DNA of 40,614 nucleotides from Methanomassiliicoccaceae archaeon (GTDB lineage Archaea > Thermoplasmatota > Thermoplasmata > Methanomassiliicoccales > Methanomethylophilaceae). Position 1 is the first letter of the stretch. Every line of letters starts with the position of its first letter. Under the pieces are notes generated by a model, which saw only the letters and a list, made by a program, of their open reading frames with translations, was not told the origin of the DNA and ran no database searches. The position numbers and the translations under genes were made by a program. The stretch is taken from the NCBI GenBank assembly GCA_016281925.1, contig JAEEJP010000070.1, forward strand, positions 1 to 40,614. The letters are read 5' to 3'. Positions 1 through 39,833 of this stretch are shown in pieces.

Positions 1-521
1 GACTCGAAAAGCTTCCTGTTGTAAGTTTCCTGGTAGCATGCATACCAGTCCGCGCCCGCTTCCCTTATCAGCGGGAACATGCGCTCCGGAAGCGCCCCGG
101 GCGAGGCCATGATATTGATTCCTACTTCGTCGTGGACGGCGTGGATGATGTCCAGAAGCTGCCTGCAATCCTCGGCGTACATCTGGGGGTCCTCGCCCAT
201 GGTCAGGTCGGCCAGATTTATCCCGGCGTCCTGCAGAGAGCCGGCGAGCTCGACGATCTCTTCCTTCGACTTCCTGTATCTCTCCTGGATCTTGTTGGTG
301 GTCCTGTAATAGCAGAATGCGCAGTTGTTCTTGCAATAGGTCGAGAAATAGACGAAACCGTAGGTATAGATCTTCTTTCCGAATTTCCTGTCGCGCACTC
401 TTTTAGCCGCGTCGAAAAGCTCCCTCAGCTCATCATCCTTAGTTATCGACATCAGCTCGTAGATGTCGCGGGACCCGAGCGGGTATCCCTTCTCCGCATT
501 CGCGATAATATCAGATATCAT
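1..521 (-). CDS. pylB: PylB, methylornithine synthase (3' part outside window)
   Basis: Radical SAM enzyme that converts lysine to 3-methylornithine, the first step of pyrrolysine synthesis. About 173 N-terminal residues are visible and the frame runs open off the left edge. The radical-SAM cysteine motif CKNNCAFC (CxxxCxxC) lies near residue 63 and is followed by YYRTTNK, as in PylB. The start (MISDII) is the ATG at 521, nine bases after the pylS stop, with a short purine stretch (GAGG) before it. pylC and pylD would be expected further left, since the usual order in this archaeal group is pylT-S-B-C-D. The family assignment rests on the motif together with the adjacency to pylS and tRNA-Pyl. 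Confidence 0.93.
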   Translation of the reverse strand, partial: MISDIIANAEKGYPLGSRDIYELMSITKDDELRELFDAAKRVRDRKFGKKIYTYGFVYFSTYCKNNCAFCYYRTTNKIQERYRKSKEEIVELAGSLQDAGINLADLTMGEDPQMYAEDCRQLLDIIHAVHDEVGINIMASPGALPERMFPLIREAGADWYACYQETYNRKLFE

Positions 522-530
522 GTCTCTGCC

Positions 531-1352
531 TCAGTCCATCTTGTAGCCGTTGACGTAAGTGATGCTTTTGCCTGTCTTTCTGACGTTGCTCTTGCCGTTC
601 CTGAGCATCAACAGGCGTTCGAGCCCGAAGCCGACTCCCGCCCAGGGCTCGTGGATGTCGTGCGCCGGGTCGAGCCTATGCGGGCCTATGGCGCCGGATG
701 CGACTTCGGTCCCTCCGATCTCGACGTCCAGCGTCTCCACATAGACGTCGGATTCCTCGCGGGAAGTCGTATATTCCACTCCGACGGCATCCATTATGTC
801 GCCGATGTATGTCTTGAGATGCTCCATCGCATCCCCGTCGGGACCCAGCTCTACGAGGTTGAGCATCGTGAATTCTTCCAGATGGGTGGAGCTCTTGGAT
901 TCCTTTCTGAAGCAGGAGCCTATCTCGAATATTCTGACGGGACCGTCGGTATGGTCCCTGAGCTTCCTCATGACCGCATAAAGGTTCATGGCATGCATCG
1001 GTCTCAGGGCCCTCTTGTCGTCGATGAAGAAGACCTGCTTGTAAAGGGGATGGTCTTCGGTTATCGTCATCTTGGCCAGGGCGGCTTTGGATACGAATAT
1101 GGGCGTGTGGACTTCGATGAAGCCTCTGGACTTCAGCTTGGCTCTGATGGCGTTGGCCAAATCGGTGAGGTCGTTGGACGGATCTGCGATGACGCCCTTC
1201 AGGCCTTTGTCGTTCGCGGATTTCAGAGCAGACATTCTGGCCGAGAATTCTTTGTCTCTGGCGGCGGCGTCAGCGAACTCCGCGTCGGCCCAGTTTTCGT
1301 CTCCGTATTCCATCAAATGCTGTATCTGAGGGTCCGTGAATTTTACGCCCAT
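531..1352 (-). CDS. pylS: PylS, pyrrolysyl-tRNA synthetase lacking the PylSn domain
   Basis: Class II aminoacyl-tRNA synthetase that charges tRNA-Pyl with pyrrolysine. At 273 residues it matches the short enzymes of Methanomassiliicoccales (about 275 in M. alvus) rather than the longer Methanosarcina enzymes, which carry an N-terminal tRNA-binding domain. Visible landmarks are motif 2 (GSCFRKES), the HLEEFTMLNLVE stretch and motif 3 (GFGLERLLML). The ATG at 1352 lies 18 bases downstream of the tRNA-Pyl 3' end, and the gene ends just before pylB, so tRNA and mRNA probably share a transcript. No separate pylSn gene is visible in the window. Confidence 0.97.
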   Translation of the reverse strand: MGVKFTDPQIQHLMEYGDENWADAEFADAAARDKEFSARMSALKSANDKGLKGVIADPSNDLTDLANAIRAKLKSRGFIEVHTPIFVSKAALAKMTITEDHPLYKQVFFIDDKRALRPMHAMNLYAVMRKLRDHTDGPVRIFEIGSCFRKESKSSTHLEEFTMLNLVELGPDGDAMEHLKTYIGDIMDAVGVEYTTSREESDVYVETLDVEIGGTEVASGAIGPHRLDPAHDIHEPWAGVGFGLERLLMLRNGKSNVRKTGKSITYVNGYKMD

Positions 1353-1370
1353 AATATCGACCGTGACATA

Positions 1371-1441
1371 TGGCGAAAGGCCGGGGGGTCGAACCCCGCT
1401 TACAGGTTTTAGAGACCCGTTTGCTCGCCGGAGCGCCCTCC
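1371..1441 (-). tRNA. pylT: tRNA-Pyl (anticodon CUA)
   Basis: Folded by hand, the 71 bases give a complete pyrrolysine tRNA. The acceptor stem pairs GGAGGGC with GCCTTTC. The D stem is GCTC/GAGC with a loop of only four bases (CGGC) and no base between acceptor and D stem. The anticodon stem has six pairs around a seven-base CTCTAAA loop, with anticodon CTA at 1410-1412. The variable region is three bases, the T stem is CGGGG/CCCCG, and GCCA is encoded at the 3' end. The minimal D loop and missing linker base match the M. alvus type of tRNA-Pyl. It reads UAG, as needed by mtmB in this window. Confidence 0.97.
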
Positions 1442-2929: not shown

Positions 2930-4345
2930 TCAGTTTTTGTAGACCCTGATGCCGGAGCAGTTGGATCTGCTGAGATCGAGTCCAAGTCCCTCAAGGGTGG
3001 CAGCTGCCTTGTCGTATACTTCAAGGTACTCCTTGGTGGGCCTGACAGTGGTGACGTCGTAGCATTCCTGGAAGGTCTTTCCAGCGGGGGCGTCGGTGTA
3101 GTGCGCCTCGTAGAGCGGGACCAACTTGCTGAGGATCTCGTTGACTTCGGAGACTTTCATTCCGGCGGCGGCCGCGGCGGCGTTACCCATCATCCTGGCT
3201 TCCATTCCGGTGGTCTTGTCCTGGACGACACCCTTTGCTGCTGCAGATCCGGAGAGGAGCTCTCTTCCGGAGGCGGTGTCGTTGATGGCCTGGGCCGCGG
3301 TCTCGAGGAGACACATCTCAGTGCAGGGCCCTGCGATCGGGTAGTACTGGTTGGCGAGCAGCAGGTCGGTGTTGGCATCGACTGCGGCGCAAGCCCATCC
3401 CGCAACCTGCAGGGTCTCTTTGGCCATGGTGGTTCCCCATCTGATGTGGATCGGACCGTCCAGGTGGAAGTTGCCGGAGAACAGTGCGAAGGATGCGAGC
3501 GTGGTAGCGACGTCGCAGATCGCGGTCTCCTCGACTCCTCCGGTGTATCCGCCGAAGATAGGCATCTGCTCGACCATGATGGTGTCCCCTGAGACGGTCC
3601 ATCCTGCGAGCATGTTGAGTCCGGTCATGTCCATTTTGAGCTCGTTCAGCTGGGAGCACTCGTGGGCATCGGTGATCCTGTGTCCCGCGGAGGGGCAGTC
3701 TGCGACCAGCCTGGCGGCTTCGGACAGAGGGGTTTCAGGTCCCTAGACACCGAGTCCAGGTCTCTGGGCTCTGGTCCTTGCCTCTTTAGTGGCCCTGAGC
3801 TCCTGCATGGTAGCGCGGATCTCCCAAGGAGTCTTGCTCTTCGCGGGCTTTCCCTCGACGGTGGTCATGACTCCGTTCACCAGGTCGTCCACGATTCCTT
3901 CCTGGGCGTAGGACTGCATGATTTTCACGAAGTAGTCCTCGGACAGAGGGGATCCGGTAGGGCCTCCCTGGATGATCGGCTTGACAGGGGAGTTTCCGCG
4001 CCTGGGGTAGAACCTGGCGATGTCTCTTCCCTCTCCAAGAATGAGTTTCTTGGGGGCCCTCTTGATTCCCTCGAAGACCTCTTCCTCGGTGACTTTCATG
4101 ACGCGGCCGAGATCCTGGCAGTAGTATCCGGTCTCGACGAGCATCTCCAGTCCGGCCTGGAACAGAGCGTCTTTCTGGTCTTTGTCCTCGGGGATGAATG
4201 TGTCGATCTTGATGTTGTACTTCTCTTTGAGGGCCGTAGCGTTTCCGGGGATGATCTTGTAGTCCCAATCCGCCTCGGGAACCTTCTTTCCTTTTATGAA
4301 TCTCTCGTATACGTCGGTAACAGTGAGGAATCTAGTTGCTGCCAT
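2930..4345 (-). CDS. mtmB: MtmB, monomethylamine:corrinoid methyltransferase with in-frame UAG (pyrrolysine)
   Basis: Transfers the methyl group of monomethylamine to the cobalt of MtmC. The reading frame has one amber codon at 3743-3745 (residue 201). Before it the protein reads QRPGLGV and after it GPETPLSEAA, which match the sequence around the known pyrrolysine of Methanosarcina MtmB (residue 202). Read through, the product is 471 residues, against about 458 in Methanosarcina; the extra residues are a C-terminal tail after GLDL. Conserved blocks are VQGGPTGSP-like (IIQGGPTGSP), EQMPIFGGYTGG, HLDGPIHIRWG and GPCTEMCLLE. The start at 4345 has a GAGGTGT ribosome site at 4351-4357 next to the mtmC stop. 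The gene ends in TGA. Splitting it in two at the UAG would be wrong. Confidence 0.97.
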
Positions 4346-13253: not shown

Positions 13254-14099
13254 TCATCTGTAGCAGCATTCGGGGATGAAGCTGACGGGAGCGGCCTTCC
13301 TTCCGCGGTCCTTGGATGCCATCCTCGTCTGGACAGCATTAAACTCGTCGGGATCCAGAACGGTCTCTGCGGTATGCCGTATCAGCAGCTCCTCCCAGCG
13401 CATGAATCCGGCATAGACGGGATTGTGGAGCACGTTTCTGAGATTGTATTTGTTCCAGGGATTGCCTTTCCTGGTCAGCAGCCCCAGTCCGTTGAGCTCA
13501 TAGCAGATGGAATCCACCGTCGCCCCGCCCATGTATTCGGAGAAAATGCGGCCGGCGACCGCGAGCTCTTCCGGCTCGGCGACGAGAGCGCCCTTCTCGA
13601 TTGAATAGCCGAATGGGGGTGTGAACCCCATGGTTTTCTTCTTGGAATCGGATGTTCCCAAGGATTCCGCCTTCTCGCGCATGCCCATGTAGGTCCTCTC
13701 GCCGATCTGCTCGCTCTCCAGCTGGGCGATGCGCTGGATCATGTCTACGACGAACCTTCCCAGAGCGTTGGTGGTATCCAAAGACTCGGAGGACGACACG
13801 AATTTCTTCCCGTTCCTGTCGAGCTCCTCCATCATCTGCATGAAGTTCCTGCTGTTCCTGTGTATGCGGTCCATTTTGATCACGAGGATGACATCCCAGG
13901 AATCGGATTCCTCCATCATTCTGCGGTATGCGGGACGCTTCGCGCTTCTCCCCGAATACCCGTCGTCTTCGTACGTCGCTGCGACGTCCCATCCTTCGGC
14001 GATGCAATAGTCTTCCAGAAGCGATTTCTGCGCTTCCAGGGAGTATCCTTCCGCGGCCTGCTCGTCTGTGGATACCCTGACATATATCGCAGCGCGCAT
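13254..14099 (-). CDS. Serine recombinase, short form
   Basis: A 281-residue site-specific recombinase of the resolvase/invertase superfamily. The N-terminal catalytic domain starts IYVRVSTDEQ, with Ser 10 as the likely nucleophile. It continues with EDDGYSGRSAKRPAYRRMM, KMDRIHRNS and the LESEQIGERT helix. A recombinase domain follows (GFTPPFGYS...VYAGFMRW). The protein stops soon after this, with no zinc-ribbon and coiled-coil C-terminus, so it is shorter than full large serine recombinases (usually 450 or more). Its 5' end overlaps the upstream paralogue by 184 bases. No att sites or cargo are recognisable, and activity is uncertain. Confidence 0.85.
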   Translation of the reverse strand: MRAAIYVRVSTDEQAAEGYSLEAQKSLLEDYCIAEGWDVAATYEDDGYSGRSAKRPAYRRMMEESDSWDVILVIKMDRIHRNSRNFMQMMEELDRNGKKFVSSSESLDTTNALGRFVVDMIQRIAQLESEQIGERTYMGMREKAESLGTSDSKKKTMGFTPPFGYSIEKGALVAEPEELAVAGRIFSEYMGGATVDSICYELNGLGLLTRKGNPWNKYNLRNVLHNPVYAGFMRWEELLIRHTAETVLDPDEFNAVQTRMASKDRGRKAAPVSFIPECCYR

Positions 14100-14872
14100 C
14101 GCCCGACCACCACCGGGCCGTTGACAGCCTCATATTTTTCCTCGCCGATTATGGCCTCGTGATCTCCGCGCTTGATTATGCCGTTCCAATCCGAATAACC
14201 GGCATATATGGGGTTTCTGAGGATGTTTGATACGGTCTGAGGGCTCCATTTCCCTCCTTTTTTGGTAGGAATGCCGCTGCGGGACAGGAAATCGGCGATG
14301 TCTTTCAGCGTGGATCCGCGGATCCTCATGTCGAACATCATGCGGACGGCATCCGCCTCCTCGGGGATTACCAGCATTTCCCCTCCTTCGAATGAATAGC
14401 CGTAGGGATGGGCGGAACCCAGATGCCCTTTCCCGCTTTTCGCTTTGTAAGTCATGCCGAGTTTGACCCTTTCGCCGATCTGCTCGCTCTCCAGCTGGGC
14501 GATGCGCTGCATTATGTCCATTACGAACCTTCCCATCGCGGTGGTGGTATCGAACTTGTCCTGCATCGAATTGAATTCCTTTCCGTTGGAGCGGAGGTCG
14601 TCCATCATCAGCGCGAAGTTCACGCTGTTCCTGTGTATGCGGTCCATCTTGAGGACCAGAAGGATGTCCCAGGAGCCGGATTCCTCCATCATCCTGGCGT
14701 ACTCCGGACGGTCGGTGGTGCGGCCTGAATGCCCTTCGTCCCTGTAGATCCCGGCCACTTCCCATCCGCGGACTCTGCAGTAGGCCTCCATCCTTTTCAC
14801 TTGGGCGTCCAGGGAGAAGCCTTCCCTTGCCTGGTCTTCTGTCGAGACCCTTGCATACAATGCCGCGCGCAT
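13916..14872 (-). CDS. Serine recombinase paralogue with out-of-frame chimeric tail
   Basis: A 318-residue ORF closely related to the gene downstream. The catalytic domain is LYARVSTEDQ (Ser 10), DEGHSGRTTDRPEYARMM, KMDRIHRNS, LESEQIGERV, followed by the recombinase domain (SAHPYGYS...IYAGYSDW). Homology ends at EEKYEAVNG. From there the frame reads about 60 residues of the start of the second recombinase gene in the wrong frame. So the native 3' end is missing and has been replaced at a junction near 14110. This suggests a tandem duplication or recombination between two copies that deleted the middle. It may be a pseudogene. Confidence 0.75.
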   Translation of the reverse strand: MRAALYARVSTEDQAREGFSLDAQVKRMEAYCRVRGWEVAGIYRDEGHSGRTTDRPEYARMMEESGSWDILLVLKMDRIHRNSVNFALMMDDLRSNGKEFNSMQDKFDTTTAMGRFVMDIMQRIAQLESEQIGERVKLGMTYKAKSGKGHLGSAHPYGYSFEGGEMLVIPEEADAVRMMFDMRIRGSTLKDIADFLSRSGIPTKKGGKWSPQTVSNILRNPIYAGYSDWNGIIKRGDHEAIIGEEKYEAVNGPVVVGRCALRYMSGYPQTSRPRKDTPWKRRNRFWKTIASPKDGTSQRRTKTTGIRGEARSVPHTAE

Positions 14873-37052: not shown

Positions 37053-37915
37053 AGCTGGGACACCCTCCTCTTCAGCTCGTCCAGAGCGGCTTCCGCGGGA
37101 GCCGACGGAGGCATCCTGGAAAGCACGTCGTTCGACAGCGCGATCCATTCCGGGCCGAAGTATCTCTCGTCGGTCCTCCCCATCTCCGCCAGCCAGAACC
37201 TCATGGCAGACCTTGCCCGGATGTCCTTGGCCGCCTCTGCCTTCCCCATCTGGGACATCTTCATGGCCCTTTTCATGGACGGGGCCTCGAACATCGCCGA
37301 CTGGTCCGTCATGTCTATGAACTTCCCGGGCTCCGGCGCCGTGCATACGAACTCCACCGCCCTCCTGACGAGGCTCCCGGTCCGCCGGTCCTTCACCGTC
37401 CCCAAAGACACGATGGCATCCGTGGCCATGAACGCCTCGGGGGCGATCCCCATGTCGTATACGACGCGGTTGTATACCGACAGCGCGGAATCGCCGTGTA
37501 TGGTCCCCATTATTGCGCTCCCCGCCTTGCCCGTCCTCATGCTCTGGTAAAGGGTGCGGGCCTCGTCGCCCCTCACCTCGCCCATGACTATGGCGGATTC
37601 GCCCATCCTGAGCGACACTCTGAGCGCCTCGTCGGCGTTGGAAAGGGGGCTGCCGTCGTTCCTGTCGTCCACCAGTATGGTCTGGACCTTGTACCCCATG
37701 TTGCGCATCTGTTCCCCGGGCAGTTCGATAGTGTCCTCCATCCCTAAGATCCCCGAGGTCCGAGGAAACTCAAACCGGGAATCCGAAAAGCGGGACGGGC
37801 CTGCTTCCGATCGTGCACGACAGGACTCGGCATCTCCCGATATCCGGGCGGAGCGCCGCCTCCCTCGGAGGCCGCTATCAGCAAGGGTGGCTATTAAGGT
37901 TTGCAGGGCCGGCAT
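37049..37915 (-). pseudogene. tadA: TadA-like secretion ATPase, N-terminal half missing
   Basis: From about GMEDTIELPGEQM the sequence is a clear TadA/VirB11-type ATPase: YKVQTILVDDR, the Walker B and Asp-box region AIVMGEVRGDEA, then QSMRTGKAGSAIMGTIHGDSALSVYNRVVYDMGIAPEAFMATDAIVSL. Full proteins have some 300 residues before this with Walker A (GPTGSGKT); here only about 60 low-similarity residues precede, with no Walker A. A TATA run at 37936-37950 is placed for an ATG at 37915, so a truncated protein may still be made. The missing part lies just where the RloAB-integrase island begins, so an insertion or deletion probably removed it. Confidence 0.75.
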
Positions 37916-37935
37916 ATCGAACGTTTGCAAAAGAT

Positions 37936-37950
37936 TATTTTAAATATAGT
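37936..37950 (-). promoter_or_regulatory. TATA element before the truncated tadA
   Basis: On the minus strand ACTATATTTAAAATAATC lies about 25 bases before the ATG at 37915. The neighbouring plus-strand ATATAGTGACATATAGTTG is a pair resembling the CTATAGTG repeats elsewhere. Confidence 0.4.
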
Positions 37951-38001
37951 GACATATAGTTGTAAAATACTTTCAAATAAAAAAACGAGTATTTATTACT
38001 C

Positions 38002-39216
38002 ATGCTCGTAGACCTGTCAATATAGAACTACGGGCCGTTCCGCGACAGGAGGACATTCAGCATGGTCGCGTCGTCGCTCAAAGACGACGAGTCGGGGGTC
38101 CTGAGGACCGAGGGAGTAGACTCCGGGCTGCTGAAGGCATCCGCCGTGTTCGGCCCCAACTCCTCCGGGAAGTCGTACATCGTCAAAGCGGTCCAGAGCC
38201 TCAAAATTGTGGTCGGCTCCGCCCGCCCGGAGGGTCTGATGCCCGAGTACATACCATTCAGGCTGTCGAAGGACTGCCTGAACGCCCCTGTCGAGCTGTC
38301 CATAAGGGTGCTTAGGGACGGCACCGTATACGAGTACAGCATATCGTACCGTTTAGACGGGATCGTATCTGAGTCCCTCCGCAGGAAGGTCGGGAGGAAG
38401 TACGAACCGGTGTTCGTGAGGGGGACTGGAAAGGAGATGATGGACCCCGTCGTCAAAGAGAGGCTGACAAGCACCACCGCCTACCTCAACATCGCCCCAG
38501 GGTTCAACTACCCAGTCTGCAACGCGGTACTCCAGGAGATCATGGGCATCATGATCGTGTACCAGTCCATGGACCTGTTCGTGCAGGAGTCCTACAGGTA
38601 CGCCATGCGCGACCCGGAGATGAAGGAGATGATGAGGTCGGGGCTGGACGCAGCCGACCTGGTAACAGGGTTCGTGGGCGAGGAGCGCACCATCCCCGGA
38701 CGCAGGGTCAAGGTCAGCGAGGGCATCGAGACCGAGATCAGGCCGCACACATACGCCGAGATCCAGCTCATCCACAGCTTCAAGGACGCAGACGTAGACC
38801 AGAAAATGCTCTCATTCCCTTTAGATATCGAGTCGTCCGGTACCGTCGAGATGTTCTCGCTGATGGGCCCCGTCGCCAAGGCCCTGAAGGAAGGGCGCAC
38901 ACTGATTATCGACGAGTTCGGGGTGAACCTGCACCCTCTCCTGAACAGATGGATAGTGGGGCTGTTCAACTACACCTCCAACGACAACGGGGCGCAGCTC
39001 ATAGTGAACACCCACGACCTGTGCCTCATGGACATCGAGGAGGTGTTCAGGAGAGATCAGATCTGGCTCACCAACAAGTGCCGCGACACCGGCGCATGCG
39101 ACCTGTACTCGTTGGCCGACATCAAAGGGGTCCGGAAGACCACCGACGTCAGGAAGGAGTACCTCCTAGGGAGATACGACGCTCTGCCAATGATCGTAGG
39201 GGTCCGCGTGCTATGA
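38002..39216 (+). CDS. RloA/AbiLi-type ATPase with in-frame UAG at codon 8
   Basis: The conserved AAA_15 ATPase reads SAVFGPNSSGKS (Walker A), a long insert, LSFPLDIESSGT (signature-like) and TLIIDEFGVNLHP (Walker B), as in RloA or AbiLi proteins of abortive infection. The ORF without UAG begins at 38062, but the family start lies upstream: ATG at 38002 gives MLVDLSI, then TAG (38023-38025), then NYGPFRDRRTFSMVASS in the same frame. Family members have this N-terminus with a normal residue at the UAG, often Lys. A TATA-like run near 37972-37980 fits a start at 38002. UAG may be read as pyrrolysine or may be a nonsense mutation. Confidence 0.75.
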
Positions 39217-39833
39217 GCCAAGGGGCGCGTCCAGAGGGCAGAAGAAGGCATCGCCGGCCGGCCGACGTCTACGTCATCGTAGGGGAAGGGGCGTCCGAGA
39301 CGCTGTACTTCGACATGATATCCAGGATCTTCCCAGGAGCCTCGGTACACACTTGCGATGCGAAAGGCGGTGACCTGAGGAGCATGAGGCAGGCGGTGTC
39401 GAGGGAAGCGTCGCGGAGCGGGAAGAGCAATCGCATCGCGGCAGTCATGGACGTCGATGAGAAGACTCCTGCCCAAGTAGGGGAGTTCGACAGATGGTGC
39501 CAGGAGAGAGGCGTCGATCTCTACGTCTCCAACCCGTCCTTCGAGGTGTACCTCCTCATGCACTACCGGAACGTCCCCTCGAGCCTGACCCAGAAGGACC
39601 TGGAGGAGGCCCTGTCGGTCAGCACCGGGAGGAGGTACGACAAGGGGAGGGGGATACGCATCTCCGAGGAGGCCGTGGCGGGAGCTCTGCGCAGGGCCGA
39701 GGCCTCTCTGCCAGACCCCGCCACAGTCGAGGAGGTTGCAGCGAGGCCGGGCACCACTACGGTCCACAAGCTGGTGAAGAAGATCGCCGGACTGGCCGGA
39801 GAGCGGCCGGAGCCGCCTCCGGCCAGGCCATGA
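39213..39833 (+). CDS. RloB/AbiLii-type protein
   Basis: A 206-residue RloB-family protein. It opens with a basic tail and then VYVIVGEGASETLYFDMISRIF, the conserved EGxxE start of the family, and later NPSFEVYLLMHYRN and YDKGRG. RloB is the partner of RloA ATPases; together they form AbiL-type abortive infection modules. The start overlaps the RloA stop (ATGA), so the two are translationally coupled. No signal or membrane segments. Confidence 0.82.
   Translation: MSQGARPEGRRRHRRPADVYVIVGEGASETLYFDMISRIFPGASVHTCDAKGGDLRSMRQAVSREASRSGKSNRIAAVMDVDEKTPAQVGEFDRWCQERGVDLYVSNPSFEVYLLMHYRNVPSSLTQKDLEEALSVSTGRRYDKGRGIRISEEAVAGALRRAEASLPDPATVEEVAARPGTTTVHKLVKKIAGLAGERPEPPPARP

Follow-up and report, generated by a model that had tools for sequence, protein, structure and literature searches.

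Pyrrolysine (Pyl) is a catalytic residue of the methylamine methyltransferases MtmB, MtbB and MttB. Beyond these enzymes, Pyl reportedly occurs in a tRNA-His guanylyltransferase, for which Heinemann is said to have proposed neutral evolution in 2009, and a 2025 report is said to propose that some archaea read all TAG codons as Pyl. The Pyl system of the Methanomassiliicoccales is described in the available text of an earlier study (PMC3941956). For Ca. M. alvus, the available text lists 16 predicted Pyl proteins besides the methyltransferases, including Cas1, a Fic protein and a 444-residue 'ATPase domain' protein, gives TAG as only 1.6% of the stops, and records Cas1 in the two other genomes compared without a detected amber codon (PMC4153887). 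For ISO4-H5, 46 amber-containing genes are given in the available text, among them Cas3 and 10 insertion elements (PMC5011839). As far as these texts go, the earlier predictions of Pyl proteins outside the methylamine methyltransferases each come from single genomes. Our literature searches on pyrrolysine with abortive infection and on RloA with RloB listed nothing about pyrrolysine in this system.

We analysed a stretch of 40,614 nucleotides, termed the window, from a Methanomassiliicoccaceae archaeon (assembly GCA_016281925.1, contig JAEEJP010000070.1). It is contig 94 in a genome of 122 contigs and 1.96 Mb, estimated to be ~86% complete. The window contains a gene for an RloA-type ATPase with UAG as its eighth codon, and from the comparative data given below we consider it very probable that pyrrolysine is inserted at this UAG, a permissive site, and that full-length RloA is made from the ATG at 38002. 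The gene and its neighbour comprise the following features:

38002 to 39216, plus strand: rloA/abiLi, an RloA-type ABC-class ATPase of 404 residues with one in-frame UAG (open reading frame, AAA_21, AbiLi, AF2)
38002 to 38061, plus strand: codons 1-20, the family N-terminus, which supplies strands 2-8 and 17-20 to the ATPase head (alignment, AF2)
38023 to 38025, plus strand: the in-frame amber TAG, codon 8 (sequence; same codon in loci L002/L046 and L003/L047)
38062 to 38064, plus strand: an internal ATG, codon 21, the start in a rival reading (sequence)
38152 to 38175, plus strand: GPNSSGKS, which we take to be Walker A (sequence, alignment)
38911 to 38916, plus strand: Asp304-Glu305, presumably the Walker B acidic pair, both invariant in 61 aligned sequences
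39213 to 39833, plus strand: rloB/abiLii, its start overlapping the rloA stop in ATGA (PF13707, AbiLii)

The frame begins MLVDLSI-TAG-NYGPFRDRRTFSM and ends with the TGA at 39214-39216. ATG 38002, the TAG, ATG 38062 and the TGA all lie in this one frame, which confirms that the TAG is located upstream of and in frame with 38062, as a preliminary description had stated. When read through, RloA matches Pfam AAA_21 (71.3 bits versus a cut-off of 27; 2e-19) and, over residues 1-398, PADLOC AbiLi (E 8.5e-67). Asn9 directly follows the amber and belongs to the 15 columns that are invariant in the 61 aligned sequences (query included). The AF2 model built from these sequences (pLDDT 92, pTM 0.90) shows strands 2-8 and 17-20 in residues 1-20, with a pLDDT of 98 for this segment. 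To judge from the alignment and the profile match, the peptide encoded upstream is the real N-terminus of the RloA family, as had been claimed, and a standard ORF call (38062-39216) misses the first 20 residues. The best Foldseek matches of the model are Rad50 heads, SMC heads and retron PtuA; relatives in the PDB by sequence are only distant (best E 3.6e-5 to 5e-5).

The downstream gene, which stops with TGA, matches PF13707 (69.6 bits versus a cut-off of 31.5) and PADLOC AbiLii (1e-19). The locus therefore has the composition of a two-gene RloA/RloB (AbiL) system, namely an AbiLi/AAA_21 ATPase with Walker A and B motifs and an adjoining RloB/AbiLii. The defence function of RloA is predicted from family membership alone.

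Relatives of rloA were sought in 100 relatives' genomes, 31 of the genus and 102 of the family, sets that overlap and include the window's own genome. Close copies are present in assemblies of two other species, G018 (95% protein identity; assigned to SUSZ01000004.1, isolate SIG7) and G006 (88%; assigned to JAEEKU010000009.1, isolate Tb.RUG.20), and both carry TAG at codon 8. The next homologues have at most 44% identity, with none between 44% and 88%. The TAG is therefore present in three assemblies and not unique to one, and its recurrence in two other species rules out both an error of assembly and a fresh mutation. Moreover, it persists across a synonymous divergence of 0.36-0.60, which disposes of the recent nonsense mutation that had been put forward as the simple alternative.

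At the start of the gene, 49 genome homologues were counted out of 51 (63 loci minus those without a hit and those with identical 60-nt starts), L033 and L043 being without an anchor. Site 8 is occupied by Glu (19), Lys (10), Arg (8), Ser (4), amber (3), Phe (2), Gly (1), Gln (1) and Thr (1), and site 9 by Asn (47) or Asp (2). The commonest site-8 codons, GAG (17) and AAG (8), are each one change away from TAG. From a viral collection, 68 homologues were used out of the best 80 of 116 confirmed relatives, with duplicates and matches short of the N-terminus excluded. In these 68, site 8 is Lys (17), Glu (16), Ser (9), Gln (8), Thr (6), Gly (4), Ala (4), Arg (2), Asn (1) or Asp (1), site 9 is Asn in 67, the exception having a match that begins at residue 2, and codon 95 of one homologue (L154) is an in-frame TAA, with no TAG in any of them. 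A search of the viral collection for exact copies of the amber region gave none. The earlier statement that Lys is frequent at this site is thus borne out in both sets, and the two patterns that had been named as support for readthrough, a UAG common to several genomes and other residues varying freely at the site, are both observed. On these alignments, site 8 is variable and permissive, and only one lineage of the RloA family has the amber there.

Among the family-set matches listed, the only in-frame stops were four TAG codons, three at codon 8 and one in G010; the 100-genome search added a single TGA, located in a short fragment (G041). The G010 homologue (L019:1501-2694, 34% identity) has its TAG at codon 68 just past Walker A, aligned with Lys68 of the window RloA, in an otherwise open frame. 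Its genome has tRNA-Pyl and pieces of pylS, and the ORF that follows its rloA appears, by eye, unlike RloB. A restart bypassing this TAG is impossible without losing Walker A; coming from a single genome, the codon-68 amber could also belong to a dying gene.

For the three species pairs, the dS/dN values of rloA are 0.36/0.024, 0.60/0.071 and 0.50/0.069. With a dN/dS of ~0.07-0.14 and neither a frameshift nor a further stop before the end in the three species, rloA is under purifying selection on both sides of the amber. In codons 2-20, we counted 5 substitutions on the three-species tree versus ~41 expected at the synonymous rate of the gene (P ~1e-12); when the slower rate of codons 21-60 is used, the deficit has a P of 2e-4. 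The changes are a synonymous one in Ser6, a replacement of Ile7 by Val and replacements of Arg16 and, through two bases, Arg17 by Lys, and outside the apical loop of the hairpin described below, Arg to Lys at 16 and 17 are the only differences. The pS of codons 2-20 is 0.11 versus a mean of 0.36 over such codon windows, and 18 of 385 of them, itself included, are as low. This unusually low value hints at a constraint at the nucleotide level besides protein coding.

The components for decoding UAG are located at the other end of the window:

3 to 521, minus strand: pylB, partial, running off the window (TIGR03910, 1.3e-61, 208 bits, below the cut-off of 348; the gene is cut)
531 to 1352, minus strand: pylS, pyrrolysyl-tRNA synthetase of the C-terminal-domain type (TIGR02367, 255.8 bits versus a cut-off of 178.15)
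1371 to 1441, minus strand: tRNA-Pyl with the anticodon CUA
2930 to 4345, minus strand: mtmB with an in-frame TAG at codon 201 (3743-3745), an internal positive control (PF05369 MtmB, 762 bits, residues 7-456, spanning the TAG)

The genome of the window encodes tRNA-Pyl, PylS and a Pyl-dependent methyltransferase. In line with the preliminary description, which had taken the cell to decode UAG, tRNA-Pyl, PylS, part of PylB and a TAG-containing mtmB are all found within the window itself. tRNA-Pyl and pylS are present in G018 as well; they were not found in the G006 bin, which is 82% complete. An mtmB homologue with TAG occurs in 31 of 31 genomes of the genus, including G006, where both mtmB matches carry TAG.

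Readthrough of amber codons in other genes was assessed in a sample of 434 kb, consisting of the window and 20 further stretches (14 from G018, 5 from G000, which is the genome of the window, and 1 from G006). Selection of ORFs by length only gave a set full of likely antisense ORFs and was therefore replaced by selection on a codon score. The 292 genes predicted in this way stop with TGA (236), TAA (31) or TAG (25, some of which are still likely spurious as TAG-ending genes). A coding-like in-frame extension of at least 60 codons follows 10 of the 25 TAG codons versus 14 of 236 TGA and 2 of 31 TAA codons (Fisher P 7e-6 for the excess at TAG; 6e-4 without the three methyltransferases). Nine of the ten candidates, among them the window mtmB, have a Pfam hit and one has none. 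The Pfam stretch crosses the amber in six, namely MtmB, MtbB, MttB, histidinol dehydrogenase (G000), TP_methylase (G000) and a DDE transposase. It does not in four: the PHP and MobA-like (G000) stretches end before the amber, the best Sel1 stretch lies after it, and one candidate is hitless.

In the window's own genome, the in-frame TAG of hisD is found at L081:13154-14446 (G000:C106:23154-24446). The gene is present in 12 of 12 genomes searched, with TAG only in this one. An amber codon in a histidine-synthesis gene makes UAG decoding look routine rather than a special switch, and similar genes such as hisD would be called broken by standard annotation. The TP_methylase and MobA-like genes of G000 with an in-frame TAG lie at L078:12627-13421 and L080:3492-4232, respectively, and the Pfam stretch crosses the amber in the former only. 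PYLIS-type elements are stable RNA stem-loops just 3′ of a UAG. No such element was found in rloA, where the 85 nt 3′ of the UAG fold no better than shuffles (z 0.35, -0.13 and 1.78 for the three sequences).

Comparison with the two other species also bears on the history of the gene pair. Positions 37939-39826 of the window, comprising the upstream region, rloA and rloB, match G018 (L046:9937-11824) at 89.4%, whereas other stretches common to both match at 66-79%, except for a phage-integrase-family gene adjoining the cassette (92%). The protein identity between the two genomes is 84% for HisD and 95% for RloA. In the window and G018, the cassette lies on opposite sides of a shared block with a type II/IV secretion ATPase-like gene, and an RloB-like ORF is likewise found downstream of rloA in G018 (blastn). 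The match of G006 is limited to 37884-39219 of the window; rloB was not found beside the amber-containing rloA in this locus (L047:11206-11600), and a short stretch past the rloA stop still aligns. The sequence comparison suggests that the rloAB cassette, including the amber, was transferred among species of the genus, and the three amber copies may consequently represent one event. The rloB gene of G018 (L046:11212-11868) ends with TAG, followed by a 16-codon in-frame extension to a TGA, and the C-terminus of RloB may be extended past the TAG in this species as well. Elsewhere in the window, at 13254-14872 on the minus strand, there are two overlapping serine recombinase genes with Resolvase and Recombinase domains.

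The sequence around the beginning of rloA contains signals relevant to both possible starts:

37972 to 37979, plus strand: TATA-like TTCAAATA, centred at -26/-27 from ATG 38002, a candidate leaderless promoter present in all three species
38004 to 38035, plus strand: a predicted RNA hairpin of 8+4 bp and -12.7 kcal/mol with the UAG in its upper stem (folding; same in the three species)
38047 to 38052, plus strand: AGGAGG, Shine-Dalgarno-like, ahead of the internal ATG (the two relatives have AAGAGG and AGGAAA)

In 64 first genes of these genomes, TATA-like matches number 6 in the bin from -30 to -26, while the remaining 19 bins average 1.0, a pattern that leaderless genes among them would produce; the bins at -95 and -90 contain 4 matches each, and the promoter signal is therefore weak. 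A Shine-Dalgarno match of at least 4 bases precedes 30 of the 64. Since other TATA-like words occur nearby, the one at -26/-27 lends support to 38002 but does not prove it. As for the hairpin, its stems are identical in the three species, and the two changes both fall into the 4-nt apical loop. It has a shuffle z of -4.5, and 0.5% of 20,000 codon-resampled versions are as stable. The same stability is reached by 22 of 280 ORF starts, a number that refers to the first, cruder length-only set, and by 40 of 1184 windows of rloA (its own included). As the hairpin was singled out after being seen, its significance is modest, and it is not exceptional.

These signals raise the question whether the UAG is a true stop or part of an untranslated leader, with translation from ATG 38062 yielding 384 residues without the first two strands. 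In the window genome, a perfect AGGAGG is located 9 nt ahead of ATG 38062, which is a usual distance, while ATG 38002 is preceded by at best 3 matching bases. A shorter mRNA would be possible from the TATA-like TCAATATA or TCTATATA around 38021 or TATTTATTA around 37994, and the low synonymous divergence together with the hairpin would suit a regulatory leader. However, a start at 38062 would remove the invariant Asn9 and two core strands modelled with high confidence. Moreover, the changes between 38035 and 38061 all fall within the Shine-Dalgarno sequence (matches of 6, 4 and 4 nt in the three genomes) and all convert Arg to Lys, and the 27 nt outside the hairpin show 3 changes where neutrality would predict ~20 (P 4e-6, or 0.03 if the slower local rate is applied). 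We therefore regard the internal start as unlikely. A still lower probability is assigned to a dual output, which overlaps with full-length synthesis through Pyl insertion in that the full-length protein is made in both: the UAG would be decoded partly as Pyl and lead partly to termination with reinitiation at 38062, so that the level of Pyl-tRNA would determine the proportions of full-length and truncated RloA and thereby the defence activity. The conservation of the amber, the in-frame ATG and a Shine-Dalgarno match of at least 4 nt in three species, as well as the UAG inside a hairpin kept in all three, would fit such an arrangement; the ordinary stability of the hairpin argues against it, and the TAG in hisD of the same genome implies that the Pyl supply is not a signal special to rloA.

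The last point also applies to a suggestion of the preliminary description, according to which the defence module depends on the Pyl supply or senses foreign translation. Its reading of the UAG as a Pyl codon is well supported by the comparative evidence, and the dependence or sensor part has no specific support, hisD likewise carrying an in-frame TAG. In a related scenario, which we consider a long shot, a mobile rloAB would be tied to the expanded code: it would work, and hence spread, only in cells that read UAG as Pyl, with the Pyl-tRNA level setting the amount of full-length ATPase via termination and restart at 38062. If true, this would link defence to methylamine metabolism or to the disturbance of translation by viruses. 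Least probable of all is that rloA is a pseudogene or the TAG an error of assembly. Pseudogenes are typically recognised by a nonsense codon, and the G006 copy, without an adjoining rloB, may be decaying, but the TAG is found in three assemblies within an intact frame that has a dN/dS of ~0.07-0.14 and no other stop or frameshift.

Taken together, the amber codon in three species, purifying selection on both sides of it, an N-terminus belonging to a conserved fold and TAG codons inside other genes make readthrough well supported. According to the reading that we prefer, translation would begin at ATG 38002, and tRNA-Pyl (CUA) would decode the UAG of codon 8 as pyrrolysine, resulting in a protein of 404 residues. 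Site 8, at the end of the first beta-strand, tolerates Glu, Lys, Arg, Ser, Gln and other residues in the family. A single base change, for instance GAG or AAG to TAG, could have occurred in the ancestor of one rloA lineage, which would now be represented with its amber in three species of one Pyl-decoding genus. The codon-8 amber probably arose neutrally.

Other defence proteins of this order have already been published as predicted Pyl proteins, and RloA would add another family, one unusually well supported by conservation. To the extent that the available texts allow the comparison, the locus resembles Cas1 of Ca. M. alvus and Cas3 of ISO4-H5 in that the amber lies in a defence gene and the carrier is a gut methanogen from the same order that encodes Pyl. 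It differs from both in that RloA/AbiLi is another family and in that the amber is found in three species, with purifying selection on its two sides. Given that the cassette also seems to be mobile, rloA is well suited to a test of whether these methanogens treat UAG like any other sense codon. As in MtmB, MtbB and MttB, the UAG of rloA would use the same tRNA-Pyl, and mtmB is present in the same window; unlike these methyltransferases, RloA belongs to another family (AAA_21, AbiLi), and its amber is confined to one lineage. With the tRNA-His guanylyltransferase it would share a Pyl, here a predicted one, at a permissive site without an evident catalytic role, although that protein is a tRNA enzyme and rloA is part of a defence cassette. 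In domain content and in the arrangement of two adjoining genes, the locus corresponds to RloA/RloB, that is, AbiLi/AbiLii. Its distinction from other RloA proteins lies in codon 8, since a sense codon occupies this site in 46 of the 49 genome homologues and in all 68 homologues drawn from the best 80 of 116 in the viral collection.
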